This document shows positions 36,167-54,581 of a stretch of DNA of 64,000 nucleotides, one piece after another (position 1 is the stretch's first letter; every line of letters begins with the position of its first letter). The stretch is taken from NCBI RefSeq assembly GCF_006364435.1, contig NZ_CP040977.1:744001-808000 (forward strand), in the 5' to 3' direction. The DNA is from Candidatus Methylopumilus universalis. GTDB lineage: Bacteria; Pseudomonadota; Gammaproteobacteria; Burkholderiales; Methylophilaceae. The notes under the pieces were generated by a model. That model was not told the DNA's origin and made no database searches. It saw nothing but the letters and a program-made list of their open reading frames with translations. Made by a program: the position numbers and the translations under genes.

Positions 36167-36900
36167 AAAAAAAAGTTTACCAATCTAAAATAATAGCTTT
36201 TGATATAATAATAAAGTTTATTATCACCGTAGACCGCAAGTCTTACTTTTAATGCTTCACTTCTCGCTTTTGATTCAAATTTGACCATTTTTCGTTCTTT
36301 ATGAATTCTATTGCATGACACAACCCAATTAGCATGATGCATTTTAATAGAGTTATCTTGCATGAAATGAATCCACAGATCAAGATCCATAGAATAATTT
36401 AAATCAGTATTCAATTTATATCTCTCAAAAAGATTCTTTTTAAAAAAACAAGTTGGCTGAGAGAGACTATTAACATAAACTAATTTCATAGTATTCATAC
36501 CAATAAATGATCTCTCTTTTATATATTCTCCAACTTCATTAACGAGAATATCATTACCATAAATGAAATCATAATTATGTGACTCGAAGAGATTATTAAT
36601 TTTAAATAATATATTCTCATCGACAAAAAAATCATCATAATTTAACCAAAATAAGACATCGCCAGTGGCCAATGAAAATCCTTTGTTGAGAGCATCAGCT
36701 TGACCTTTGTCTTTTTCTGAAATAACTTTTATAAAAGGAAGATGAGTATATTTTTCGATAATTTTTATTGTATCGTCACTAGAAACTCCGTCGATAATTA
36801 TGTACTCAAAATTTTTATAATTCTGACTTACCACAGAACTAATGGTTCTTTCTATATATTTTTGACCATTTAAAACTGGGGTAACTATTGAAAACTTCAT
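36163..36900 (-). CDS. GT2 glycosyltransferase
   Basis: 245-residue GT-A protein. It starts SIVTPVLNGQKYIERTISSV, then IIIDGVSSDDTIKIIEKY and the metal-binding FWLNYDDFF, the standard family 2 arrangement, related to WcaA-like transferases. The C-terminal half contains LDLWIHFMQ. It overlaps both neighbours by 4 bp. Substrates unknown. Confidence 0.88.
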   Translation of the reverse strand: MKFSIVTPVLNGQKYIERTISSVVSQNYKNFEYIIIDGVSSDDTIKIIEKYTHLPFIKVISEKDKGQADALNKGFSLATGDVLFWLNYDDFFVDENILFKINNLFESHNYDFIYGNDILVNEVGEYIKERSFIGMNTMKLVYVNSLSQPTCFFKKNLFERYKLNTDLNYSMDLDLWIHFMQDNSIKMHHANWVVSCNRIHKERKMVKFESKARSEALKVRLAVYGDNKLYYYIKSYYFRLVNFFL

Positions 36901-37982
36901 AGTATTAAATAATTTTTAAAGAATTTATATAGATCTCTAGAATATTTAATATACTTTAAATTCACATTAGCGTTCGTTGCGATGAACGCTGCCTGATTCT
37001 CACTATACGAAGAATATCCATGCATTGACTTACATGCTCGAACACCAAAGAAATTCGGTACAAACATCATTCCTTCATTTAGCCTAAATATAATATCGCC
37101 AAAGTCTTTATTTGTAATTCCAAAAGTCTTTCTCTCCTGTCTGTTAATAATTTTTCCATACTTATACCCTTTAAGGTATTTAAGGATGTCCAAATGAAAT
37201 ACTTTGTCATATGTCCAAAATCTAATAAAGGTAGAATCTATAAAATAATGATAGGTAAAGTCAGAAGGTTTACCAAAAATATGCTCAACATTTAATGCAA
37301 GAACTTTTGTAACATTCGACATTCCATGATCTGAAAAAATAAAAATATTTAAAGATTCTAATGGCTTATTAGTTTTAAAAAAATTAATAAGCCTTAACAA
37401 GTGAAAATCAAGAAGCTTTAAATGGGAGTCATACTGCTTAGAATTAACGCCGTATATGTGAGAAATATTATCAAGATCAACAAGAGATAAGAAAGTATTT
37501 TTTGAGTATGATTTATACAAACTATTAATAGCAATCAAATCTCTTTTGCCAACACTTTTTTTTATCTGTGAGGAATCTGAAATTAAGAAATTAAAATCTT
37601 TAATTATATTTGGCGATTTGAAAAAGCTAAAATGATGGGGTCCATTTGATTGGAACATATTAAAATATGAAAAGGGTATATTAAAAAAATTAAAGCCGCA
37701 TTTTTTTAAAAATAAACGTATGGCAAGATTCAGATACTTAATGCCTCTAAAATAGTCGAGAAATTTGTAAAAAGATACTTTCCGTGAGGTTGGAAATCTA
37801 CATAATGACCACTCATTGAAATATCCAATTTCGTCTGGTGTTTTACCTGTAACTATCTCAGCGTAAATATTATTACTAAAACCAACTCCTGGAATCACCT
37901 TTTTAACTTTAAAAGTATTTATCAGAGAGAGTTTTCTTGAATTTTTGAACGACAAGCCGTCAATAAATATCAAAAGATTCAA
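36897..37982 (-). CDS. Alkaline-phosphatase-superfamily (NPP-like) phosphodiesterase
   Basis: 361 residues with the metal-site plan of nucleotide pyrophosphatase/phosphodiesterases: Asp8 (FIDG), a serine at the nucleophile position (Ser36 in GFSNNIYAEIVTG), Asp171 and His175 (DNISH), Asp218-His219 (SDHGMSN) and His321 (MHGYS). I see no signal peptide or membrane span, so the enzyme should be cytoplasmic, unusual for this family. It shares a 4-bp overlap with a nucleotidyltransferase-fold protein upstream. Likely substrates are phosphodiester or pyrophosphate bonds of sugar nucleotides, or a phosphate-linked glycan substituent; this is inference. Confidence 0.7.
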   Translation of the reverse strand: MNLLIFIDGLSFKNSRKLSLINTFKVKKVIPGVGFSNNIYAEIVTGKTPDEIGYFNEWSLCRFPTSRKVSFYKFLDYFRGIKYLNLAIRLFLKKCGFNFFNIPFSYFNMFQSNGPHHFSFFKSPNIIKDFNFLISDSSQIKKSVGKRDLIAINSLYKSYSKNTFLSLVDLDNISHIYGVNSKQYDSHLKLLDFHLLRLINFFKTNKPLESLNIFIFSDHGMSNVTKVLALNVEHIFGKPSDFTYHYFIDSTFIRFWTYDKVFHLDILKYLKGYKYGKIINRQERKTFGITNKDFGDIIFRLNEGMMFVPNFFGVRACKSMHGYSSYSENQAAFIATNANVNLKYIKYSRDLYKFFKNYLIL

Positions 37983-39130
37983 TGTGTAAACCTTTCTTTA
38001 CTTGGATTAAATAATATGCAGGAAAAAATACTCTCGAGGTTCTTATATGATTGCATGTAAATTTCATAAGAGCTTCGATTTTTAGTTAATAATTTATTTT
38101 TAAAAATTAGATTATGATTTTTAATGATGTTTAATAGCGTTTCTTTAGATTTAACATCTGATTGCTTTTTTGCAATAACAAAGGTATGCATATCTATCAA
38201 AAGTTGCGCCAAATTATTCCTAAAGTTTATTGGTTTTTGCTGAAAAATTAGGTGAAAAGCTCTTAATTTGAGCAAAAAAAATCTAAATCTATAGCGAATA
38301 TCGAATTGTTGACTATCTTTTTTATGCTCAATCTCATGTAATAAATCTTTGTACATCTCAAGAAAATTACTCAATTTTATTGGGCTATTCAATGGATGTT
38401 TTATATTTAATTTGATATCTAAAGCGGTTACAAAGATGTTCTTATATTTAGTTGTGAAATCATATCGATGAGTATTTATATAGTCATTTCTTGATTTGTA
38501 CGAAGATCTAAGTATGCCTTGGTTTGGAAGAAAAATAGTTAGCGCATCCAGGCAGTTTCTCGCAATCATAAAGTTTAGGTTTTCTTTTGTTTGTTTTTCA
38601 CTTATAAATCTTAATGAGTGCCAAAGCCTGACATAAATCAAATCATTTACAGAGTTTAAAGAGAGATTATTGATATTTATTTGTTTAAAAAAATGATTTA
38701 ATAATATATTATTTTTTCCCAGTAAAATTCCATTTACGGATAATTCATATTTCCAGATAGAATTTGGTGACATTAGCAATTTAAAAATTGAATAAAATCC
38801 ATAATCAATCTCAAAGAAAGGGCTGTAACTTAATAGCCCATTATTGTGTTTATCTAAAACTCTTAGAAGCTTTGTTTTAAATATTTTGGTTAGAAAAAAA
38901 GGATATAAAACAATAAATTCAATATCACTATAGAATTTTATTCCTTTTTTTGAATATTTATAGGAAAGCTCATTCCTAGAAGTACTTCCTATCAACAAAA
39001 TATTAACGAAGTAATTCTCATGTATTAATAAGGCCAAATCATCAAACAGAGCTATTAAATATGTAGCTACTATTTCGTGATAAAAAAACTTAATTTTTTT
39101 TTTAAATTTACTTGCTTTTGTGTTTTTCAA
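37979..39130 (-). CDS. Putative nucleotidyltransferase-fold protein
   Basis: I do not recognise this 383-residue protein as a named family. Near residues 45-75 it has LLIGSTSRNEL followed about 20 residues later by SDIEFIVLYP, which fits the hG[GS]...Dh[DE]h signature of the nucleotidyltransferase superfamily; FFEIDYGFY near 105-112 could provide the third carboxylate. The rest is helical and basic. A ten-A run covers codons 10-13. It overlaps a GT2 gene upstream by 23 bp and an NPP-like phosphodiesterase downstream by 4 bp. A role in modifying the glycan or its precursor is inferred from position. Confidence 0.55.
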   Translation of the reverse strand: MKNTKASKFKKKIKFFYHEIVATYLIALFDDLALLIHENYFVNILLIGSTSRNELSYKYSKKGIKFYSDIEFIVLYPFFLTKIFKTKLLRVLDKHNNGLLSYSPFFEIDYGFYSIFKLLMSPNSIWKYELSVNGILLGKNNILLNHFFKQININNLSLNSVNDLIYVRLWHSLRFISEKQTKENLNFMIARNCLDALTIFLPNQGILRSSYKSRNDYINTHRYDFTTKYKNIFVTALDIKLNIKHPLNSPIKLSNFLEMYKDLLHEIEHKKDSQQFDIRYRFRFFLLKLRAFHLIFQQKPINFRNNLAQLLIDMHTFVIAKKQSDVKSKETLLNIIKNHNLIFKNKLLTKNRSSYEIYMQSYKNLESIFSCILFNPSKERFTH

Positions 39131-39764
39131 TCAATAATTCCGTAAATTTTTCCATTTTTTCTTTTTTAAGCGTCATGTTCATTCCATGAATATGATATTT
39201 ATATAAAGGAAGGCTTACATAGCCAATTCGATATTTATGTTTGAATCTTATTCTCAAATCCTCATCTTCTCTAAATAAAAAGTTGGTATCATAAAGCCCA
39301 ATATCAATAAGCTTATCTGCCCTGTACATGATTCCACATCCAATAGGAAATTCTTCATGTCGTTTTCTTTCTGATACATTTTGTAAATCATCAATTAGTA
39401 AATAATCGCAAGCAAATGCGTCAATATCATTATTAAGCTGAAGATGTATCATTAAGATATACAAATAATCTTCATGGACATAGTCATCGGAATCAACTCT
39501 CACTATAAACTGACCTTTTGCTTTTAAAATTCCAGCATTTAATGCTGCTGGAAGACCAAGGTTATTGTCATGTTCAATTAACTCAATACTTTCGCTATAT
39601 TTTTCTAGGATTTTTTTGGTATTATCTGTGCTTGCATCATTAATAATAATTATTTCAAATAATTCTGGATTAATTTTATTATTTAATATCGATCTAATAC
39701 ATCTCCCGATATATTTTTCAGAATTAAATACTGGGACAATAACTGATATTTTCGGATTTTTCAT
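39108..39764 (-). CDS. GT2 glycosyltransferase
   Basis: 218-residue family 2 GT-A protein: SVIVPVFNSEKYIGRCIRSI, IIINDASTDNTKKILEKY and metal site VRVDSDDYVHEDYLY. LFREDEDLRIRFKHKYRIGY is the usual late acidic motif. It is short but complete for a single catalytic domain. It overlaps the cytidylyltransferase gene upstream by 41 bp and the nucleotidyltransferase-fold gene downstream by 23 bp. Substrates unknown. Confidence 0.88.
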   Translation of the reverse strand: MKNPKISVIVPVFNSEKYIGRCIRSILNNKINPELFEIIIINDASTDNTKKILEKYSESIELIEHDNNLGLPAALNAGILKAKGQFIVRVDSDDYVHEDYLYILMIHLQLNNDIDAFACDYLLIDDLQNVSERKRHEEFPIGCGIMYRADKLIDIGLYDTNFLFREDEDLRIRFKHKYRIGYVSLPLYKYHIHGMNMTLKKEKMEKFTELLIEKHKSK

Positions 39765-40515
39765 TTTTATATAAAAAACGAGAAGGTAAGGTTATATTAC
39801 TCTGTTTTATAAATCTATCGGAAAATTCTTCTTTGTTACTATCTATGTAATTCAGGATTGCATTAAGATTATTTGTCTTGGGATCAAAATTAGCCAAGAC
39901 TTTTTTTATGAAAACAAGATCCTTAGGAGTATCTATAGTCAATGATAGATTTGAAAATATTTTTTTTACTTTTCTAGAATTGTATTTATTTACTAGAAGT
40001 TTGTCGGGTCTTTTTAGCATGTATGTCATGTACTCCGTACAATCTTTTCTTCTGATATTTGCATGAGCTTTAATAAGTGCCTTGAGATTTATAATTTCAG
40101 AGCGAGTTCCTATTGGCGAATCTACTGTGTAAGTGTAATCGCTCTTTAGATAAAGATGACTTTTTAACATACTTTGCATTAAGTAAGGATCCGTAAGAGG
40201 GTTGTCACCTGTGACCCTGATTATTGTTTCGGCATTAAATTTTAAACCGCAATCAATAAACCTTTTCATAACATCAAGCCTGCTCCCAGAAAAAAACCCA
40301 ATATTATATTTTCTTGACCACTCTGACAGTTGTTGATCTTCGGGGGAGTTTGAAGTACAAATCACAAGATTTTTTCTTGGAATTACTTTTAGTAAATTTC
40401 CAATAAGAATAGAAATTAATGGCTCTCCATTAATTTTTCTAATTGCTTTTTTAGGAAGGCGCTTAGAGTTCAATCTTACCGCTATTAAAACAACTGAATT
40501 ATCCCAAATCTTCAT
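39724..40515 (-). CDS. SpsF/NeuA-like cytidylyltransferase
   Basis: 263-residue protein with the cytidylyltransferase signature RLNSKRLPKKAIRKINGEPLI at its N-terminus and RVTGDNPLTDP as the metal-binding region. This pattern is that of the SpsF/CMP-sialate synthetase group (COG1861-like). It would activate a nonulosonic or related acid with CTP for transfer into the glycan. Its stop and start overlap both neighbours, and the gene directly upstream is a NeuB-like synthase, so synthesis and activation are probably consecutive. The sugar is unknown. Confidence 0.8.
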   Translation of the reverse strand: MKIWDNSVVLIAVRLNSKRLPKKAIRKINGEPLISILIGNLLKVIPRKNLVICTSNSPEDQQLSEWSRKYNIGFFSGSRLDVMKRFIDCGLKFNAETIIRVTGDNPLTDPYLMQSMLKSHLYLKSDYTYTVDSPIGTRSEIINLKALIKAHANIRRKDCTEYMTYMLKRPDKLLVNKYNSRKVKKIFSNLSLTIDTPKDLVFIKKVLANFDPKTNNLNAILNYIDSNKEEFSDRFIKQSNITLPSRFLYKNEKSENISYCPSI

Positions 40516-41497
40516 TAGAAATCATCTGTCCAGCATTTAATGTAGTTAGAAAAACTTTGTAGTTTTTATTTGAAAAATCTATTCTAGCAAGCCCAGGGCT
40601 CGATGTTCTTTTAAAAACAATTTTATCAAGGCTAAATGGCTGGTTTTTTTCAATATGTTCTTTTGCAATAGCAAATTTTTTCATATTTTCCCTGTAGTTG
40701 CTTTCAGCAGGATCTAATAAATTAAATTCACTCATTTTCATCATCTCTGCTACATTTTTTATGTCAGAAATGAAAATCTTAAATTCATCGATATTAAGGG
40801 CGGAATGATAGTCTGATTTTTTTAAAAACCTATCTGGTGATATGTGCTTTTCTATATATGACGCTCCAAAAGCAAGCGCGAGGAAGCACGGAATATCTCT
40901 AAGTTTGTTGTTGCTATCAGTATGATCAGCATATCCAACATCAAATTTAAATGTATCGGACAGCCATTTAATTTTACTAATATTAACATCATCAATTTGC
41001 GTTGGAAAATTTTGAAATCCGTGTAGTAAAATAGTTTTGTTTTTATATTGTTTTAGGTGCTCAGCTAGAATATATATTTCATCTATAACGGCTCCACCCA
41101 CACCTATAAATACTGGCTTATTATATGAATAGATTTTATGTATAAGTGAAAAGTCATTTATATCAGATGTTGGAATTTTATAGGCATAGATTAATGAGTG
41201 GTTGTTTATAAGCCCAACTGATTTTTCGTCATAGAATTCACATATAACCTTTAAATTACATTTCGACGCTTCATGAATTAGTAAATCCCAGTCGCTAGGT
41301 TTAATGTAGATCGAATTCAGGGGGGAGTTAACTACAGAGTCTGCAACTAGTTCACTTGTATCAAAAATTTGAAACTTTACAAATTCCACCCCAATACTAC
41401 TAATAGATCGAATTAGTTGCAAACAGGCAGAAAAACTTCCTTCATGGGATGAAGCAATTTCGCATATTATCTTCGGCACATCATTTAATTTATCCAT
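40499..41497 (-). CDS. Divergent NeuB-type sugar-acid synthase (second paralogue)
   Basis: 332 residues, NeuB TIM barrel followed by a SAF-like C-terminus. Matches include CEIASSHEGSF, FVKFQIFD, YKIPTSDIND, VGYADHTDS and IEKHIS; the metal histidines and phosphate-binding serines or equivalents are kept. It differs from classic sialate synthases at LLHGFQNFPTQ (versus H-C-x-x-x-YPT) and at KRTSSPGLARI in the SAF part. It probably condenses phosphoenolpyruvate with a sugar, but perhaps not the usual N-acetylmannosamine type. Overlaps the cytidylyltransferase by 17 bp and the radical SAM gene by 13 bp. Confidence 0.8.
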   Translation of the reverse strand: MDKLNDVPKIICEIASSHEGSFSACLQLIRSISSIGVEFVKFQIFDTSELVADSVVNSPLNSIYIKPSDWDLLIHEASKCNLKVICEFYDEKSVGLINNHSLIYAYKIPTSDINDFSLIHKIYSYNKPVFIGVGGAVIDEIYILAEHLKQYKNKTILLHGFQNFPTQIDDVNISKIKWLSDTFKFDVGYADHTDSNNKLRDIPCFLALAFGASYIEKHISPDRFLKKSDYHSALNIDEFKIFISDIKNVAEMMKMSEFNLLDPAESNYRENMKKFAIAKEHIEKNQPFSLDKIVFKRTSSPGLARIDFSNKNYKVFLTTLNAGQMISNEDLG

Positions 41498-42825
41498 TCA
41501 TAAGTATCCTTAAATGAGCAACCCTTGCAAACCTCTATTTTATCGATATTTCCTTCGATATGAGATTGTCTTACTTTATTAATTTCCATGCCATTCCAGA
41601 TGTCTTTTAAGGAGCTAATTTTTTCCAATGGCTTGTTAAAAACAGGAGGTAGCTTAACTCCTGACATTAAGTCAAAGCCCTTTTTGGATTCATTTATGCT
41701 TTTAATAACTATATATTTATCTTTATGGGGGTCCCCAAAAGGCTTGTCTGAAATGAAGCCAACAGGGTGCATCGAACCCCAGTCATAGCAGCACATAGAA
41801 ACTCTGCCATCGTATGTCACCATAAGCCTCTGAAATGGTTGCTCACATGGCTTGCGCTTATTAGCCACAAATAAAATACCACTTGGATCTTTCAAATAGG
41901 CAGGATTATTAACAAGATTATGCTTTTTGCAAAGATTTTGATAATTTTGTAAATCAAATTCAGACAAATGACTCACTTCGCCGCCTCTTTCTGTGTATTG
42001 AGTAACAGTTACGTCATCAACATAATTAGAAAATAATTTAAAAAAACTATCAATTTCACTTGAGGTTTGATCTGTGAGAATCATTTGAATTTTTGTCGTA
42101 GGAAACTTAGCCCCCAATCCACTTCTAATCTTTTTAAAATTTTTAATATTTTCATAAACATCATCAAAACTATTAAACTTAAATCTGCCAGGCCTCATTT
42201 TTTCATAAGTTTCCTTCGATCCGCCATCAAATGAATAAATAAGATGGTCGAGGCCAGAATTAATTAAACTATGAGATTTTCTTTCATCCAAATGAGTGGC
42301 ATTGGTATTAATAATAGTATCAATAATTCCATTTTCTTTTGAATACCTTATGTACTCATGCAATCTTGGATTTAGTAGGGGTTCGCCCCTCCAATTAAAT
42401 TTTAGAGATGGAACTCCCAAATCTGCAGCCTGATCAATAACATTAAAACATAGCTCATCCGAAATAATTTTATCTGGCGTAGCTAGTGACTCTCGATAAC
42501 AAAAAGGGCAAGCTAAATCACAAATTGCAGCAGTTTCAATATCAACACACAATGGAATATTCTGAACTTTTTCTGGGTTATGAATTCTGTTAATTTGATC
42601 TGCGGGCTGTCTCTTCCAATTTTTACGATAAGTAATAAAGTTATTTTTAAATAAATTTAATGCCTCATTAAAATTAGCAGAATTTTTCGTCATAAAAGTC
42701 TTGAAGGCAAGATTTTCAGACATATTTTCAACCATAAAATTTTCACGATCAAATGTAGTGGTATTTTTTGAAACAATTGACGAGCCTGTTAAAATTTTTT
42801 GCTTATATAAATTAATTTTTTCCAT
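41485..42825 (-). CDS. Radical SAM/SPASM domain protein
   Basis: 446 residues. The radical SAM cysteines are in CDLACPFCYRE near residue 115, followed by FNWRGEPLLNP and HLIYSFDGGSKETYEKMRPG. A SPASM region follows with KPCEQPFQRLMVTYDGRVSMCCYDW and ends with CKGCSFKDTY, able to hold an auxiliary cluster. I chose ATG at 42825 because GGAGT lies 6 nt upstream; the longer frame to 42867 reads into the preceding gene. Enzymes like this dehydrogenate, epimerise or modify sugars and peptides. Placement between two NeuB paralogues suggests action on a sugar precursor. Function unknown. Confidence 0.85.
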   Translation of the reverse strand: MEKINLYKQKILTGSSIVSKNTTTFDRENFMVENMSENLAFKTFMTKNSANFNEALNLFKNNFITYRKNWKRQPADQINRIHNPEKVQNIPLCVDIETAAICDLACPFCYRESLATPDKIISDELCFNVIDQAADLGVPSLKFNWRGEPLLNPRLHEYIRYSKENGIIDTIINTNATHLDERKSHSLINSGLDHLIYSFDGGSKETYEKMRPGRFKFNSFDDVYENIKNFKKIRSGLGAKFPTTKIQMILTDQTSSEIDSFFKLFSNYVDDVTVTQYTERGGEVSHLSEFDLQNYQNLCKKHNLVNNPAYLKDPSGILFVANKRKPCEQPFQRLMVTYDGRVSMCCYDWGSMHPVGFISDKPFGDPHKDKYIVIKSINESKKGFDLMSGVKLPPVFNKPLEKISSLKDIWNGMEINKVRQSHIEGNIDKIEVCKGCSFKDTYEWIN

Positions 42826-42829
42826 CAAT

Positions 42830-43882
42830 CTACTCCAGATCTTGCCATTGAATAATATGATCTTCACTTAAATCAATTTTTACTTTTTTCCCAATTACAG
42901 ATTCAAGCTTCATCGGGCAAATTCCAGTTCCTGGCCTTTTAGAAATTAGCATAGATTCAGTTATAGTCATTCCCTTGGAAATTTTGCAGTTTGTAACCAG
43001 GCTTCTTCTTGCATTTTTAATGGAAAGTAACTCAGAAGCTCTAAATTCCATAGAAAAATTTGGGTTATAAATACTAAAGAATTTATCAATGTTTTTTCTT
43101 AAAATAATGAGGTCAGTAACATCCATAGCATGATAATGATCATTGCCAGGAAGAGTTTTATCATAAGTGAAATGCTTTTCTATTATTCTTGCACCAATGG
43201 AAACTGAACTAATTAGAGTAAATGCGTCCATTTCTGGAATTGTATGATCTGAATAACCAATCAAGCAATCTATAAAATTTTCCTTGAGTAAATTTATGCC
43301 TCTAAGGGAAGCATTTTCGAAGTCAGTTGGGTAATTTAAAATGCAATGTAAAAGTGCAACATTTGGCGCACCATTTTCTTCTAGAATAGTCTTAGCACTT
43401 AAAACTTCATTTAAATTACTAGCCCCTGTAGATAAAATAACAGGTTTCGATTTTTGACCTATAGCCTTAAGTAGTGGCAGGTTTGTAATATCAGAAGAGG
43501 AAACCTTAAAAAAACTTACTAAAGTGTCTAAGAAGTCAACTCCATCAATATCAAAAGGGGTAGAAGAAAACTCAATCTCCTTATATTTGCAGTACTCAAA
43601 GAGCTCTCTATAATCCTCATGGGTGAAATTATCGTATTTTTTAAATAGTTCGTATTGAGACTTTGTTGGTTCCTTTGACAAATCCCAGTATGACGGACTA
43701 TTTTTCGAAGCTAATTTGTTAGCAGTATACGTTTGAAATTTGACTGCATCAGCCCCGCCACTTTTTGCTAGGTCAATCATTTTCTTCGCTTTTTTGATAG
43801 AGCCTTCGTGGTTGACACCAATTTCAGCAATTACAAAAACATAATTGTCAGTATAGGATTCTAGAAAATTAAGGTAAGTCAT
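42830..43882 (-). CDS. neuB: NeuB-family nonulosonic acid synthase
   Basis: 350 residues with full NeuB architecture. TIM barrel: VIAEIGVNHEGSIKKAKKMI, AVKFQTYTA, SSTPFDIDGVDFL, FKVSSSDITNLPLL, HCILNYPT, IGYSDHT and IEKHFT, covering the PEP- and metal-binding residues. The C-terminal SAF antifreeze-like domain contains SKRPGTGICP with the conserved arginine. It would condense PEP with a hexosamine to give a sialic-, legionaminic- or pseudaminic-type acid; sequence alone does not tell which. The radical SAM gene starts 4 nt downstream of its stop. Confidence 0.88.
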   Translation of the reverse strand: MTYLNFLESYTDNYVFVIAEIGVNHEGSIKKAKKMIDLAKSGGADAVKFQTYTANKLASKNSPSYWDLSKEPTKSQYELFKKYDNFTHEDYRELFEYCKYKEIEFSSTPFDIDGVDFLDTLVSFFKVSSSDITNLPLLKAIGQKSKPVILSTGASNLNEVLSAKTILEENGAPNVALLHCILNYPTDFENASLRGINLLKENFIDCLIGYSDHTIPEMDAFTLISSVSIGARIIEKHFTYDKTLPGNDHYHAMDVTDLIILRKNIDKFFSIYNPNFSMEFRASELLSIKNARRSLVTNCKISKGMTITESMLISKRPGTGICPMKLESVIGKKVKIDLSEDHIIQWQDLE

Positions 43883-43884
43883 AA

Positions 43885-45540
43885 CTAGTTTTTTTTAATT
43901 TTAATAATATAGTCAAAATATTTAGCAAGGAAGTTATTATGAGTAACAAGAATTACAGTAGCAATCTTGCTCGATTTTAAAATTAATTTAATAGCACTAA
44001 ACTCACTTTCTTTGTCCAGAGAACTAGTCGGCTCATCTAAAATTAATATTTTTGGCTCAAGATATAAGGCTCTAGCAATGTTAATTTTTTGTTTTTCTCC
44101 TCCGGACAAATCCTTTTTTCCAATATTAAGATGATCATCGAGAGATACTGATGTTAGGTTAACAGATTTCAACAAACCCAGCAAAAATTTATCCCCTTTA
44201 CGTGGAAAATTTTTATCAAGCGTAATATTCGCTCTCAATGTATCAGATAAGATTAATGTATCCTGGCTCAAATAAAAAACCTCATTTGGAAAAAAATTAA
44301 AATTCAAATTATAGGGTTTTTTGTCTACGATAATACTGCCAGACTCTGGCTTAAGTAAGCCAGCAATTATATTCACTAATGTAGTTTTTCCAGATCCACT
44401 TGGGCCTAAAATACAGTATGTCTTACCTTTTTGAATTTTCAAATTAAAAGGCCCGATTTCACTTTTTTTATTCGGGAATCGGAAAAAAATATCCTTATAT
44501 TCGATCGTATTCCAGGATTTTTTTATCATAGAAACCTTCGAATTTACTCTCGAAAAATTAAATCTTTGAAAATTACTAATCAAACCTTCACATGTGCCCA
44601 CTGAAAACTTCAAGTTATTAATATGTGAAATCGACCTCGAATATACAGGCGAAATTCTTAGGGCAATCAAAGTGTAAAAAATAAATACATACGACAGATC
44701 ATTAAAATTTTCTTTATGAGAAATAAGGTAATAAGAAAATATTAATATAATTGAAACAACAACAAATTCGATGCCAGCCTTGATATTGGATTGGCTTCTG
44801 TGCAGCTTAATTGATAACCTAGCAGATTCCTCAACTGAGTTATTTAAACCAACATTAAATAACTTTATTTTATTAATCTTTACGTTTTTAAGAAAAGCCA
44901 GGAAGTCACTAAATAAACTATTTTTTTTTCGAACACTCAACCTTCTTAAATTTCCTAACTCAATAAATTTGGCTGAGTATAAATGCTTATACGAAAGGTA
45001 AAATAATAAAAGTGTGCTGCTGGCTATCAGTACTGGATAAAAACCCATGTAAATAAGAGGTATGAATAAAATTGCTATAAGAATAAAATCTGAAATAAGT
45101 TGAAGGAATGGCATAAAAAAAAGATGAGTAACGCTATCTATTTCATTGCTAATAATTGACTTTAACGAATTTTTGTTAGAGTTAATTATATTTATGTAAT
45201 CTGATTTTTCGATTCTGCTGAAAAAATTAGAGTGTAATTCTTTGTTTATATAAAAAATAAAATTATAATAATATTTTATATATTGATCATTAAATATGAA
45301 TTTAACTAGAAAAAATAAGAAAGAAAGAATATAAATTACTTGAAACTCAATTTCATAACCAAAAAAAATAAATTGCTCGTTAGAGAAAATCGCTTTCACA
45401 GTTGGTATGAGGATTGTAATCCCAAGTAATTCAAATAAACCGTAAAGAACTGTAAGAAATAAAACTTTGTATATGCTTTTGTATATATACCCTTTAAGTA
45501 TAGAGTCGAACTTTGATAAAATTAAAAAATAATTTTTCAT
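43885..45540 (-). CDS. PglK-like ABC lipid-linked oligosaccharide flippase
   Basis: 551 residues: a membrane half of about six spans (1-310) fused to an ATPase. The N-terminal LTVLYGLFELLGITILIPTVKAI resembles Campylobacter PglK. Walker A GPSGSGKTTLVNIIAG, signature LSGGEKQKINIARALYLEP, Walker B ILILDEPTSSLD and H-loop LVTHNNF are intact. It would flip undecaprenyl-linked sugars across the inner membrane. A second, Wzx-type flippase is encoded at 60021-61319. It lies between gmd and the neuB genes, 2 nt before neuB. Confidence 0.85.
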   Translation of the reverse strand: MKNYFLILSKFDSILKGYIYKSIYKVLFLTVLYGLFELLGITILIPTVKAIFSNEQFIFFGYEIEFQVIYILSFLFFLVKFIFNDQYIKYYYNFIFYINKELHSNFFSRIEKSDYINIINSNKNSLKSIISNEIDSVTHLFFMPFLQLISDFILIAILFIPLIYMGFYPVLIASSTLLLFYLSYKHLYSAKFIELGNLRRLSVRKKNSLFSDFLAFLKNVKINKIKLFNVGLNNSVEESARLSIKLHRSQSNIKAGIEFVVVSIILIFSYYLISHKENFNDLSYVFIFYTLIALRISPVYSRSISHINNLKFSVGTCEGLISNFQRFNFSRVNSKVSMIKKSWNTIEYKDIFFRFPNKKSEIGPFNLKIQKGKTYCILGPSGSGKTTLVNIIAGLLKPESGSIIVDKKPYNLNFNFFPNEVFYLSQDTLILSDTLRANITLDKNFPRKGDKFLLGLLKSVNLTSVSLDDHLNIGKKDLSGGEKQKINIARALYLEPKILILDEPTSSLDKESEFSAIKLILKSSKIATVILVTHNNFLAKYFDYIIKIKKN

Positions 45541-45557: not shown

Positions 45558-46652
45558 TTAATAGCCAGCATCTTTTAAGACCAAGCGTTGCTTTGCTTCT
45601 ATATAATCATTAGATATCATTTCATCAATGAGTAGTTCAAGATCAAATTCAGGTACCCAATTCAAATCTTTTGCTGCTTTAGACGAATCCCCACATAAAG
45701 TATCAACTTCCGATGGTCTAAAATATTTAGCGCTCACTTTTACAATTACGTCTCCTTTACTTATGAAGGGGGCTATTTTTTTATCTACCCCTACAACTTT
45801 ACCTTCCTCTTTAATCCCTTTATTTACAAACTCCAACTCCAATCCAATTTTTTTTGCGCTCGCAACAATAAAATCTCTTACACTATATTGTTTACCAGTT
45901 GATATTACATAATCAACAGGTTTTTCTTGTTGAAGCATAAGCCATTGCATCCGGACATAATCTTTTGCATGACCCCAGTCTCTTTTTGCATCTAAATTAC
46001 CAAGATAGATGCATTTTTCAATTCCAAATGCAATATTCGCTAACCCTCTAGTAATTTTGCGAGTAACAAAAGTCTCCCCTCTTCTTGAGCTCTCATGGTT
46101 AAATAAAATTCCATTGGCAATAAACATCTGGTATGACTCTCTATAGTTAACTCCGATCCAATATGCAAAAAGTTTAGATACTGCGTAAGGCGATCTCGGA
46201 TAAAACGGCGTGGTTTCTTTTTGAGGAGATTCTTGAACAAGGCCAAAAAGTTCAGACGAGGATGCCTGATAAATCTTAACCGAATTCTCCATACTCAGCA
46301 TTCTTACAGCTTCGAATATCCTTAGCGGACCTAAAGCATTTACATTAGCAGTATATTCTGGAACCTCAAAAGAAACTGCTACATGGCTTTGCGCACCCAG
46401 GTTATAAATTTCGTCAGGACAAACTTTCCTTATAATGTCCACGCAAGATAAGCTGTCAGTAAGGTCTCCGTAGTGCAGAATAAAATTTTCACTTGCAGGT
46501 CCCTCAATGAGATGGTCAATTCTTTTTGTATTGAAAGAGCTTGATCTTCTTTTGATACCGTGGACTAAATAATTTTTTTTTAGAAGAAATTCAGCCAAAT
46601 AAGAACCATCCTGCCCAGAAATTCCAGTTATGAGTGCAACTTTTTTCTTCAT
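45558..46652 (-). CDS. gmd: GDP-mannose 4,6-dehydratase
   Basis: Converts GDP-D-mannose to GDP-4-keto-6-deoxy-D-mannose. The 364 residues show the NADP-binding [27 protein letters not shown], catalytic SSSELFG and [15 protein letters not shown], and [16 protein letters not shown]. Its start overlaps the fcl stop by 4 bp. The product can go to GDP-fucose through Fcl, or to an amino sugar through the DegT aminotransferase at 49844. GDP-mannose would come from ManC at the far end of the island. Confidence 0.97.
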
Positions 46653-49111: not shown

Positions 49112-49847
49112 AACAAGAACCCCAAGTCTTCTCGGAAAGTTGTTTTGAGGTCATCCACTCAAAATTTTCCATGAGTTTAAATCCGGCTTGTTCTAGAAAA
49201 TACTCAATTTCACTCTTAAAGTAATAGCGGACACGATGCACCTCATTAAAATCGATATTTTTTTTAGAAATTTTATCGGTAATTCTTATTTTATACTCCA
49301 CATCAACGACACTCTCTCTTTGGAGTAAGTTTGGATAAGCAACTCTAGTTAATTTAAAATCTTTTTGTTTTATATGTTTATATTTTATTTTTGGCGGGTG
49401 GCTAAGAACGGCAGGACCATACCAACAGTCAAATATAAAGAAACTATTCTTCTTTAGGTTGATGTTTGCGGTTTTGAACGTATCTAAAAGATCGTAGTAA
49501 TTTAACTGGTAGCTTATGACATGAAAAAGAGAAATTACAGCATCAAATAACATAAGACTTCGAAATTTTCTGACGTCACCAATCTCGAAATTGAGCTTAA
49601 GGGTTTTTTGTTTTTTGGCCAAACGCACCATATCTTTGCTTATATCTATTCCATGAACTGAATAATTTAATTTTGATAATTCAACAGCATGCTTTCCAGT
49701 TCCACAACCCAATTCGAGAATATTTGCTTTTGTTTTCACTTTTAGCTTCATTAAAATCGCATTGAGATAATTTACTTCTTTTTTGTAATCTTTGTGGCTA
49801 TATATCAAATCATAATAGTCTGCATATTTCTTAAACAAGAAGCTCAA
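49083..49847 (-). CDS. Class I SAM-dependent methyltransferase
   Basis: 254 residues with the Rossmann methyltransferase core: motif I ILELGCGTGKHAVELSK, acidic strand-2 end VHGIDISKDMVRLA, and DAVISLFHVISYQ. The N-terminal YADYYDLIYSHKDYKKEV is often seen in sugar methyltransferases of polysaccharide clusters. It overlaps the aminotransferase gene upstream by 4 bp, so it may methylate an amino sugar made by that enzyme. Substrate unknown. Confidence 0.85.
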   Translation of the reverse strand: MSFLFKKYADYYDLIYSHKDYKKEVNYLNAILMKLKVKTKANILELGCGTGKHAVELSKLNYSVHGIDISKDMVRLAKKQKTLKLNFEIGDVRKFRSLMLFDAVISLFHVISYQLNYYDLLDTFKTANINLKKNSFFIFDCWYGPAVLSHPPKIKYKHIKQKDFKLTRVAYPNLLQRESVVDVEYKIRITDKISKKNIDFNEVHRVRYYFKSEIEYFLEQAGFKLMENFEWMTSKQLSEKTWGSCYVAKKIREI

Positions 49848-50956
49848 TTAAAGATCTCCCAGGCTGCATCTGCAACAATTTCAATTTCGTTATCAGTTAT
49901 GCCTAATCCACTTGGAATATAAAAACCATGCTTGTAAAGACTTTCTGAATTAGGGAATGTTTCATTTCTAAAGAATCCTTTTTTCTTCAAAACTGGCTGC
50001 ATATGCATGGGATAGAAAAAAGGTCTACATCCAATGTTTTTGGCAAAAAACTTTTTAATTGCTGTTTCAGCAGTCATTGGATTTGCTCTTTCAATTACTA
50101 AGCTAAATACCCAATAAATATTTTCAGCAATTTCATTTTTTTTTACTGGGAGCTGTATATTGGGTAAGCCATTAAGCAGCTTATTATATCTTTTCCCTAT
50201 GTCTCTTTTACGCTTAATAAATTCCTCAATTCTCTCTAGCTGGGCCACACCAACAGCTGCTTGGATATTTGTCATTCTCATATTCCAACCCAAGCGATTA
50301 TGAACAAATCTTTTTTTTGGGTTAAAACATAAATTTCTTAAGCCTTTACATGTGTCAGCAAGGGCCTTATTATTGACAGCAACCATTCCACCCTCTCCAG
50401 TGGTAATGTGCTTATTTGAGTAAAAACTAAAAGTACTAATGTCTCCGAAGCTTCCACATGGCTTACCTTTATAATCTTGTCCAAGAACCTCGGAAGCGTC
50501 TTCAATAATAAAAAGATTGAATTTTTTAGCTAATCTTAAGACTGGATCCATATCTACTGGCATTCCATATATGTGAACTACCATTATAGCTTTAGTCTTT
50601 TTTGTAATCTTTTTCTCAATCTCCTCAACATTCATATTGAAGGTAAATGGATCGCAGTCGAGCAAAATAGGAACAGCAGAGCATCTAATAATTTGATTTA
50701 TGCATGAAATTATTGTAAACGATGGCATTATTACCTCATCCCCAGCACTTATTCCCAATGCTTCAATTGCTAAATCCAGAGCGGCTGTGCCATTAGAAAC
50801 TGAAATGGCATATTTTTTTTCTATTTTCTTGGCAAACATTAACTCGAAACGCTCAACAAAGGGGCCTTCAGAAGAGATCCATCCCGAATCAATACATTCA
50901 TTAAGGTACTTTTTCTCATTGCCATTTAATAAAGGTCTATTTACAGGGATAAAAAT
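49844..50956 (-). CDS. DegT/DnrJ/EryC1-type sugar aminotransferase, perosamine-synthetase-like (AUU start)
   Basis: PLP-dependent aminotransferase acting on a 4-keto sugar nucleotide. Landmarks: SNGTAALDLAIEALGI, IYGMPVDMDPVL, EDASEVLGQDYKGKPCGSFGD, PLP lysine in FYSNKHITTGEGG, and NMRMTNIQAAVGVAQLE. The family N-terminus IPVNRPLLNGNEKKYLNEC is encoded upstream of the first ATG (50839) without ATG, GTG or TTG. The frame opens after TAA at 50960-50962, and AAAGGAG sits 6 nt before ATT at 50956, which I take as the start (370 residues). Similarity to RfbE, with gmd nearby, suggests GDP-perosamine, but other keto sugars are possible. Confidence 0.83.
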   Translation of the reverse strand: MFIPVNRPLLNGNEKKYLNECIDSGWISSEGPFVERFELMFAKKIEKKYAISVSNGTAALDLAIEALGISAGDEVIMPSFTIISCINQIIRCSAVPILLDCDPFTFNMNVEEIEKKITKKTKAIMVVHIYGMPVDMDPVLRLAKKFNLFIIEDASEVLGQDYKGKPCGSFGDISTFSFYSNKHITTGEGGMVAVNNKALADTCKGLRNLCFNPKKRFVHNRLGWNMRMTNIQAAVGVAQLERIEEFIKRKRDIGKRYNKLLNGLPNIQLPVKKNEIAENIYWVFSLVIERANPMTAETAIKKFFAKNIGCRPFFYPMHMQPVLKKKGFFRNETFPNSESLYKHGFYIPSGLGITDNEIEIVADAAWEIFN

Positions 50957-53420: not shown

Positions 53421-54581
53421 ATGAAAATTATAGTTCTTGGAGGAGATGGATTTTGCGGCTGGCCAACTTCTTTGCACCTTTCAAATTTGGGGCATGAAAT
53501 AACAATTATTGACAATCTTTCTAGAAGAAAAATTGATATAGATTTAGAAACAAATTCCTTAACTCCGATTAAACCAATTCATAGGAGAATAAAAACCTGG
53601 GAAGAAATGACTTCTAAAAAAATTAATTTTTTAAATATTAATGTTGCAACAGATTATGAATTAATTAAAAAAGCGATCGCAGACGTCAGCCCTAATGCAA
53701 TAATTCATTTTGCTGAACAACGCTCAGCACCTTATTCAATGATATCAGCAACAACAAAGAGATATACCGTCAATAATAATGTGAATGCAACACACAATAT
53801 CTTAGCTGCTATAAGCGAACTTAAAAAAGATATTCATCTAATTCACCTTGGCACAATGGGCGTTTATGGCTACGGTCAAACTGGAGAGAATCCAATCCCT
53901 GAGGGATATTTAGAAATTAAAATTGATCAACCTGATGGAAGTCAGGTCAGCAAAGAAATTCTTTATCCTGCGGCGCCTGGGAGCATTTATCATACAACAA
54001 AAACACTCGATGCACTTCTTTTCTACTTTTACAACAAAAATGATAATTTAAGGATCACTGATCTTCATCAAGGCATCGTGTGGGGTACAAATACATTCGA
54101 AACAAACCTCCATGAAGATTTAATTAATAGATTTGATTATGATGGTGATTATGGAACAGTTTTAAATCGTTTTTTAATGCAGTCTGCAATAAATCACCCA
54201 CTAACCGTTCATGGTTCGGGCAATCAAACAAGAGCCTTTATTCACATTCAAGACTCTGTTAAGTGTATAGAAATAGCCTTAAACAACCCTCCTCAGGCGC
54301 AAGATAAAGTACAAATTTTTAATCAAATGTCGGAATCTAAAAAGCTGATTGATCTAGCAAATATAGTTTCAAAATTGACAGGCGCAGAAATTTTACTATT
54401 AAACAACCCAAGAAACGAAGCTGACTGCAACGAATTAAATGTGATAAATACTAAATTTATTGGTTATGGGCTGTCCCCACTTAAATTGAGCGAAAATTTG
54501 ATGTACGAAGTTACTGAAATTACTAAAAAATTTACCCACAGAATAAACAAAGATAAGATTTTAGCAAAAGCTAAATGGTAA
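53421..54581 (+). CDS. sqdB: UDP-sulfoquinovose synthase-like NAD-dependent enzyme
   Basis: 386 residues matching the Sqd1/SqdB family from end to end as I remember it. Landmarks are GGDGFCGWPTSLHLS, the RRKIDID and NSLTPI segment, HFAEQRSAPYSMI, LGTMGVYG, YHTTK (the Tyr and Lys of the catalytic pair), TDLHQGIVWG, RFDYDGDYGTVLNRF and HPLTVHGSGNQTR. Family members make UDP-sulfoquinovose from UDP-glucose and sulfite. It starts a four-gene plus-strand operon with a glycosyltransferase. No sulfolipid synthase gene is near, so the sugar may go into the glycan. A related non-sulfonated product cannot be excluded. Confidence 0.82.
   Translation: MKIIVLGGDGFCGWPTSLHLSNLGHEITIIDNLSRRKIDIDLETNSLTPIKPIHRRIKTWEEMTSKKINFLNINVATDYELIKKAIADVSPNAIIHFAEQRSAPYSMISATTKRYTVNNNVNATHNILAAISELKKDIHLIHLGTMGVYGYGQTGENPIPEGYLEIKIDQPDGSQVSKEILYPAAPGSIYHTTKTLDALLFYFYNKNDNLRITDLHQGIVWGTNTFETNLHEDLINRFDYDGDYGTVLNRFLMQSAINHPLTVHGSGNQTRAFIHIQDSVKCIEIALNNPPQAQDKVQIFNQMSESKKLIDLANIVSKLTGAEILLLNNPRNEADCNELNVINTKFIGYGLSPLKLSENLMYEVTEITKKFTHRINKDKILAKAKW

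Follow-up and report, generated by a model that had tools for sequence, protein, structure and literature searches.

A conserved radical SAM–NeuB gene cassette of Candidatus Methylopumilus universalis that may make a nonulosonate-like surface sugar without NeuC

The genome of Candidatus Methylopumilus universalis holds, within the 64,000-nucleotide stretch analysed here (contig NZ_CP040977.1, positions 744,001 to 808,000; called the window below, with positions counted from its first letter), a cassette of five adjoining genes: a NeuB-family synthase (NeuB1), a radical SAM/SPASM enzyme, a second NeuB protein (NeuB2), an SpsF-like cytidylyltransferase and a GT2 glycosyltransferase. These five genes are one conserved unit. 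We consider the chances to be roughly balanced that, with no hydrolysing 2-epimerase involved, this unit makes one nonulosonate-like surface sugar (an alpha-keto acid), activates it with cytidine monophosphate (CMP) and transfers it, and that the unit has spread horizontally. The initial annotation of this DNA had proposed a new nonulosonic-type acid or a double acid residue. An unusual acid is indeed likely, because no gene set for sialic (Neu), legionaminic (Leg) or pseudaminic (Pse) acid is complete in the genome and the five-gene cassette is conserved. The step from two NeuB synthases to a double acid is not supported in the form proposed.

The cassette as a conserved unit

The four core genes are full length and stop-free and form a single tight operon on the minus strand in the order NeuB1 – radical SAM/SPASM – NeuB2 – SpsF. 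A gap of 4 nucleotides (nt) separates NeuB1 from the radical SAM gene, which overlaps NeuB2 by 13 nt; NeuB2 and SpsF overlap by 17 nt, and SpsF and the GT2 gene by 41 nt. This order and the close packing are as first described in the initial annotation. The alignment of homologues places the start of the radical SAM gene at the ATG at 42825 and not at the GTG at 42867.

A four-sequence NeuB2 alignment scanned against 84,980 species genomes found 51 loci in many phyla, of which 50 were counted (L073, a fragment, was left out). These are not 50 independent cases, as L036 and L043, and likewise L032 and L034, are near-copies; L023, L055 and L070 belong to genomes from which the query alignment had been drawn, and one of these three loci holds a radical SAM gene. 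SpsF is present in 40 of the 50 loci, where it is fused to NeuB2 (seven), found within 100 nt (31) or farther away (two). The ten loci without it either carry a NeuA-type gene (seven) or are ended by contig edges (three). NeuB1 lies within 10 kb in 38/50 loci and NeuC was found in 23/50. The radical SAM family occurs in eight loci, each time at most 60 nt from NeuB2.

The radical SAM profile alone was also searched against 347 genomes of the Pelagibacteraceae, the SAR11 family to which the genome of the NeuB2 locus L050 belongs. There were 16 matches at an E value of 1e-50 or better, nine of them to the long form of the enzyme (>500 bits) and seven to a short form (185–228 bits). One of the nine long-form matches is the genome that had supplied a profile row, which leaves eight new loci. 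NeuB2, SpsF and a NeuB1 are present in all eight, so that the co-occurrence for which the initial annotation had proposed a comparative genomic check is borne out. NeuB2 was found in none of the seven short-form loci, some of which are ended by contig edges. L201 and L208 reproduce the gene order of the window, as does L205, where NeuB2 and SpsF are fused. The GT2 protein of the window is 49% identical to that of L201 and 51% to that of L202; in L020 its homologue forms a fusion protein with a CTP_transf_3 domain.

The window radical SAM protein is 44–55% identical to the eight SAR11 copies and 46% identical to one in a metagenome-assembled genome (MAG) of a Nitrososphaerales archaeon. These identities would fit a horizontal spread of the cassette among SAR11, other bacteria and archaea.

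The cassette is situated within a low-GC surface-polysaccharide region (33.5–62 kb of the window). The guanine-plus-cytosine (GC) content is 36–42% before 32 kb and 25–36% from 32 kb on, with an abrupt change near 33 kb. Unrelated sugar genes, one of them an inactive NeuB copy, could have come to lie side by side in such an island, and a close relative of the radical SAM protein is present in none of 14 genomes of the same genus, several of which are incomplete. Nevertheless, we regard this explanation as very improbable, since the identical set and order recur in SAR11, linked sets are found in the archaeal MAG and in several phyla, and the NeuB2 residues are conserved across phyla. A chance neighbourhood was also rejected, given the linkage seen in 8/8 new SAR11 long-form loci and in the 50-locus NeuB2 scan.

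The genomes of 60 relatives contain no close relative of the radical SAM protein (best match 48 bits). The 16 NeuB genes retrieved from them all score as NeuB1, and at least one more (G059) lies outside this set. One same-genus genome has, at a different site, a canonical-looking locus (L245, G004:C1:506000-525000). It comprises NeuB1 and NeuC in two copies each, together with single PtmE-type and NeuA genes; its 19 kb contain no NeuB2 and no copy of the radical SAM gene.

A phage or plasmid origin was tried and rejected, as tblastn with the radical SAM protein gave distant partial matches only (four phage and 149 plasmid records), none covering 80%. A single-protein scan of viral contigs gave no match. 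When viral contigs were scanned with alignments, more distant relatives appeared, some of them beside SpsF-like and NeuB genes. In five IMG/VR contigs labelled viral (L084, L087, L088, L089, L112) radical SAM, SpsF-like and NeuB genes stand together.

Several NeuB2 loci have further features of their own. In Leg-type loci (for example L022, L037, L051, L061 and L063) NeuB2-SpsF follows genes that we take to be LegB-, LegC-, LegI-, LegG- and PtmE-like, and no NeuA was found nearby. A YhcH/DUF386 gene, presumably encoding a sialic acid anomerase-like protein, occurs in 11 loci. A B12-binding radical SAM protein (L025:1524-3557) adjoins a radical SAM–NeuB2–SpsF–NeuA–NeuB1 operon.

Two kinds of NeuB protein

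A tree of 93 rows (43 NeuB1 and 50 NeuB2) was built by a quick method with support from the Shimodaira–Hasegawa-like approximate likelihood ratio test (SH-aLRT) and no bootstrap. A single branch with an SH-aLRT value of 100 parts NeuB1 from NeuB2, and the split survives removal of the motif columns. The NeuB2 rows of the tree had been picked by the motif G[FV]Q..PT, and G182, Q184 and T188 are therefore conserved partly by choice. As a check, eight SAR11 NeuB2 proteins were picked by profile match and show the same residues, the profile itself having been built from motif-chosen rows. The initial annotation had pointed to a difference of the second NeuB at the HGFQNFPT site; that difference turns out to be the signature of the NeuB2 family.

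Residues are numbered as in NmeNeuB, the numbering being transferred through alignments. The roles of K53, H236, D247 and S154 are those that we presume them to have in NeuB. The other tabulated positions are listed in PMC6795526 or PMC7371886, the first of which also provided the list of NeuB active-site residues.

The window NeuB1 agrees with NmeNeuB at 25 of the 28 tabulated positions, the differences being D134, L184 and K235 (Asn74 and Phe288 are outside the table). It retains E25, K53, Q55, T110, K129, S132, S154, S213, H215, E234, H236, D247 and R314. Judged by these residues, its NeuB site is intact and it is predicted to be a synthase that uses phosphoenolpyruvate (PEP). D134 is found in 8/8 NeuB1 proteins (seven from SAR11 and that of the window). 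The NeuB_NnaB model gives 322 bits, under its equivalog cut-off of 399.65, and the PseI model 244.5 bits against a cut-off of 340.25. In L021, L033, L040, L050 and L073 a fusion of about 800 amino acids (aa) has NeuB1 as its C-terminal portion. The N-terminal part of the L021 fusion matches flavin amine oxidoreductase (57 bits), and a dehydrogenase-like gene of 350 aa adjoins it.

NeuB2 is different. Its metal side is kept throughout, with E25 in 48/48 and H215, E234, H236 and D247 in 50/50 aligned rows. Arg314 is kept in 42/48 rows, and positions 182 and 184 are G and Q. On the PEP side, T or S at position 110 is found in 0/49 NeuB2 rows compared to 42/43 NeuB1 rows, S154 in 8/50 compared to 42/43 and S213 in 5/50 compared to 43/43. 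In the window NeuB2, positions 110, 154 and 213 are occupied by E87, G132 and A190, so that all three residues of a canonical PEP-dependent synthase (T/S110, S154, S213) are absent, whereas the PF03102 domain and the metal-side residues place it within the NeuB family. Among the cassette forms (eight from SAR11 and that of the window), position 110 is E or D in 9/9 and S213 is replaced by A or Q in 8/9. The AlphaFold model of NeuB2 has a mean predicted local distance difference test (pLDDT) score of 92 and consists of a barrel with an AFP-like end; its closest solved fold is NeuB (1xuu). Because the metal ligands are invariant, several PEP-side residues are replaced and the NeuB-like model is confident, NeuB2 seems to be a functional metal enzyme whose PEP side has changed, as opposed to a decaying copy. 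The loss of metal- and PEP-binding residues in one of the two proteins had been named in the initial annotation as a finding that would speak against its proposal, and the outcome is divided: the metal side is intact and part of the PEP side is gone.

Several observations weigh against this reading of the two proteins. The window NeuB2 forms a long branch (2.1–2.3). NeuB1 is non-canonical in L206 (D25, A110, A154), and in L203 it has G314. In addition, K53, Q55 and K129 are found in 9/9 cassette NeuB2 proteins and S154 in 4/9; with these residues retained, NeuB2 may still bind PEP.

A rival explanation is that the two NeuB proteins are independent PEP-dependent synthases that make two acids, both activated by SpsF and one of them modified by the radical SAM enzyme. 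The frequent nearness of NeuB1 (≤10 kb in 38/50 NeuB2 loci), the full set of metal ligands in NeuB2, the K53, Q55 and K129 of its cassette form, the full length of both proteins and the NeuB fold of NeuB2 would all agree with this. However, two ordinary synthases making two acids are doubtful, because NeuB2 is a separate clade in which several PEP-side residues are replaced; the acidic position 110 in 9/9 long-form NeuB2 proteins and the A or Q at position 213 in 8/9 are cases in point. Moreover, SpsF is, besides KdsB, the sole activating enzyme, and NeuB2 is accompanied by a cytidylyltransferase in 47/50 loci compared to 38/50 with NeuB1, several of the NeuB1-less loci being ended by contig edges. 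On balance, we consider the two-acid explanation unlikely and favour a single acid, with NeuB2 in a role other than that of an ordinary synthase.

Missing pathway genes and a proposed pathway

The genome is very small (1,304,290 bases in one contig) and 99.97% complete. PF02350, the family of the hydrolysing UDP/GDP-sugar 2-epimerases NeuC, LegG and WecB, has no match anywhere in it, while 11/14 control genomes are positive. PseG (TIGR03590) is likewise without a match genome-wide and positive in 5/14 control genomes. The best genome-wide score for LegB (TIGR04180), 130 bits, falls short of the cut-off of 475. For the 4,6-dehydratases LegB and PseB, PF02719 gave four weak matches of at most 45.6 bits, namely RmlB, RmlD and two general epimerases; these pass the Pfam cut-off of 20.2, and LegB/CapD-type controls from other loci reach 144 and 311 bits. 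As for a NeuA/LegF-type CMP synthetase, a genome-wide search with PF02348 (CTP_transf_3) returned KdsB and SpsF above the cut-off and MobA below it, and SpsF may substitute for such an enzyme. The initial annotation had noted that no NeuC-, LegB/LegC- or PseB/PseC-type gene was recognisable beside the cassette, and for NeuC, LegB and PseB this extends to the whole genome, in which no PseG was recognised either. A third PF03102 match (599724), which we take from its sequence to be a DAHP-synthase-like (3-deoxy-D-arabino-heptulosonate 7-phosphate synthase-like) protein, was set aside; it lies outside the cassette and similar matches occur in many relatives.

NeuC is thus dispensable for the cassette in its own genome. 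It is likely also dispensable in 8 of the 10 long-form SAR11 genomes, namely those that contain no PF02350 protein (completeness was established for the window's own genome only).

The radical SAM/SPASM enzyme carries the CxxxCxxC motif and aligned SPASM-type cysteines, and its AlphaFold model has a mean pLDDT of 81. By sequence profile, the closest solved proteins are BtrN (1.6e-14) and BlsE (2e-11), both of which are small-molecule enzymes. The substrate is likely a sugar, as the gene adjoins those of a synthase, a cytidylyltransferase and a glycosyltransferase.

The following scheme, in which the individual reactions as well as their order are our proposal, builds on the gene content, co-occurrence, fusions, residue changes and genome-wide absences described above. 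NeuB1 would carry out an ordinary PEP condensation onto an aldose that is not of the N-acetylmannosamine (ManNAc) type and has a source other than a NeuC-type enzyme. The radical SAM/SPASM enzyme would abstract a hydrogen from a sugar carbon, leading to a BtrN-like dehydrogenation or to an epimerisation, either before NeuB1 (preparing the aldose) or after it (altering the acid). NeuB2, with its metal and sugar sites kept and its PEP side rebuilt, might act on the acid or hold it beside SpsF. The latter would convert the acid into a CMP-sugar, the acid of which GT2 would add to a lipid-linked glycan, and GT2 and the ABC transporter would place it on a surface glycan. Only tentatively do we suggest that this is a fourth kind of ulosonic-acid pathway, dependent on radical SAM chemistry and independent of NeuC, in which NeuB2 would be a new metal-dependent activity in the NeuB fold that departs from canonical PEP use and forms one unit with SpsF, the whole having spread among SAR11, other bacteria and archaea.

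Not all of the data sit easily with the proposed pathway. L206 has its radical SAM gene at a distance of 2.8 kb from NeuB2, and L207 has a weakly matching NeuB1 (125 bits). PF02350 proteins are present in 2/10 long-form SAR11 genomes, in the genome of L040 (long form, archaeal MAG) and in those of L023, L024, L036 and L043, which have a radical SAM form of about 330 aa. The BtrN match is significant on its own for the core stretch only, the two C-terminal stretches matching in order but weakly. The structural Z scores of 20.0, 20.0, 19.5, 19.5 and 19.0 for BtrN, SkfB, SuiB, DesII and BlsE amount to a tie with peptide maturases, so the fold by itself leaves sugar and peptide substrates level.

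A different division of labour is also conceivable. The radical SAM enzyme could replace NeuC and feed NeuB1 directly by epimerising a hexosamine-type sugar at C2, and NeuB2 would be a non-catalytic, product-binding subunit of SpsF. The lack of PF02350 in the window's own genome and in 8/10 SAR11 carriers is consistent with this, as are the NeuB2-SpsF fusions in 7/50 loci. It is nonetheless decidedly unlikely: in L024, L036 and L043 NeuC genes occur together with the ~330-aa form of the radical SAM gene, and the fully kept metal site of NeuB2 points to a catalyst.

Genomic setting and comparison with known systems

The coordinates of the cassette and of neighbouring features are collected in Table 1. 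The Pfam matches of all four core proteins exceed the family cut-offs.

Table 1. Features of the cassette and its neighbourhood (window positions)
Feature	Position	Strand	Evidence and remarks
NeuB1, NeuB-family synthase with SAF/AFP domain	42830..43882	-	PF03102 242 bits, SAF 34 bits
Radical SAM/SPASM enzyme, long form, 446 aa	41485..42825	-	PF04055 56 bits, PF13186 40.5 bits
CDLACPFC, CxxxCxxC radical SAM cluster motif	42499..42522	-	Its three cysteines invariant in 14 aligned homologues
NeuB2, TIM barrel with C-terminal AFP-like domain	40499..41497	-	PF03102 132 bits
SpsF-like cytidylyltransferase	39724..40515	-	PF02348 79 bits
GT2 glycosyltransferase, fifth member of the cassette	39108..39764	-	PF00535 117 bits
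ABC transporter, PglK/MsbA-like	43885..45540	-	ABC_tran; PglK/MsbA matches under cut-off
GDP-mannose 4,6-dehydratase	45558-46652		Same gene run as cassette; exceeds equivalog cut-off
DegT-type aminotransferase	49844-50839		6 kb upstream of cassette; 337 bits
UDP-sulfoquinovose-synthase-like epimerase	53421..54581	+	NF041015 337 bits, under cut-off 575

The ABC transporter gene upstream is separated from NeuB1 by 2 nt and has homologues in three of the eight new SAR11 loci (L202, L206, L208); it is a probable partner of the cassette, less constant than the core genes. The UDP-sulfoquinovose-synthase-like epimerase is 10 kb from the window cassette and 37–38% identical to genes of the cassette loci L020 and L208, and it is a possible accessory. 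A GDP-fucose-synthase-like gene and glycosyltransferases are likewise found in the polysaccharide region. Among the downstream glycosyltransferases there is a protein with a type I phosphodiesterase/nucleotide pyrophosphatase domain (36897-37982), which could conceivably be a nucleotide-sugar hydrolase. Genes that resemble ndk, rlmN and ispG in their translations stand beside the GC change near 33 kb.

Sialic-acid-like sugars are inferred from genomes by means of NeuB, NeuC and NeuA. Despite the missing NeuC and NeuA, the cassette could be mistaken for a sialic acid pathway; likewise NeuB2, in spite of its partly rebuilt PEP side, could pass for an ordinary synthase. If the proposed pathway is correct, it would add radical chemistry to this class of sugars and provide a defined set of enzymes for testing. 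It would also mean that surface-sugar genes move among SAR11 (regarded as the most abundant bacteria of the ocean), other bacteria and an archaeon.

Judged by titles and the beginnings of abstracts, none of the open-access papers listed in our searches describes a radical SAM gene as part of a locus for a nonulosonic acid (NulO) or as a partner of NeuB. No open-access paper was found to contain 'radical SAM' and 'nonulosonic' together, and PMC8743553 contains 'radical SAM' and 'sialic acid'. In an account of the legionaminic cluster of Leptospira interrogans, a second, 'distantly related' NulO synthase is located near LegI, LegG and a guanylyltransferase gene (PMC3438082). A divergent second synthase thus occurs in a Leg cluster, as in the Leg-type NeuB2 loci. 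Unlike NeuB2, it has a C-terminal phosphatase-like domain and is read there as a sialic acid synthase (PMC3438082); the likeness to NeuB2 is one of description only.

The first half of the spiroSPASM model (NCBIfam TIGR04321) matches SpsF and its second half the radical SAM protein. spiroSPASM is a single fused protein, and the window scores are 31 and 44 bits against a cut-off of 250. Even so, as SpsF and the radical SAM protein each match one half below the cut-off, a fusion of both parts is on record. BtrN and BlsE are the top sequence matches among solved structures, but the identity is about 20% and the window enzyme has roughly 85 additional residues at its N-terminus, so no function can be transferred from them. 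SpsE and SpsF of the Bacillus subtilis sps operon belong to the same two enzyme families as NeuB2 and the cytidylyltransferase, for which one solved SpsF homologue is available (6oew). In the alignment SpsE (1vli) differs from NeuB2 in having the NeuB1-type HC..YP and SDH motifs. We know of no radical SAM partner for SpsE and SpsF of B. subtilis. In the Leg locus of Campylobacter, PtmF presumably takes the place that NeuB2 has here.

In summary, the families of the parts are known, and taken together the parts lack the genes by which the Neu, Leg and Pse pathways are defined. The set differs from these pathways in that the window genome has no recognisable NeuC/LegG, PseG, LegB/PseB or NeuA and in that the radical SAM enzyme and NeuB2 are extra. 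It resembles them in the synthase site retained by NeuB1, in the cytidylyltransferase and glycosyltransferase genes that come after it, and in its place within a surface glycan locus.

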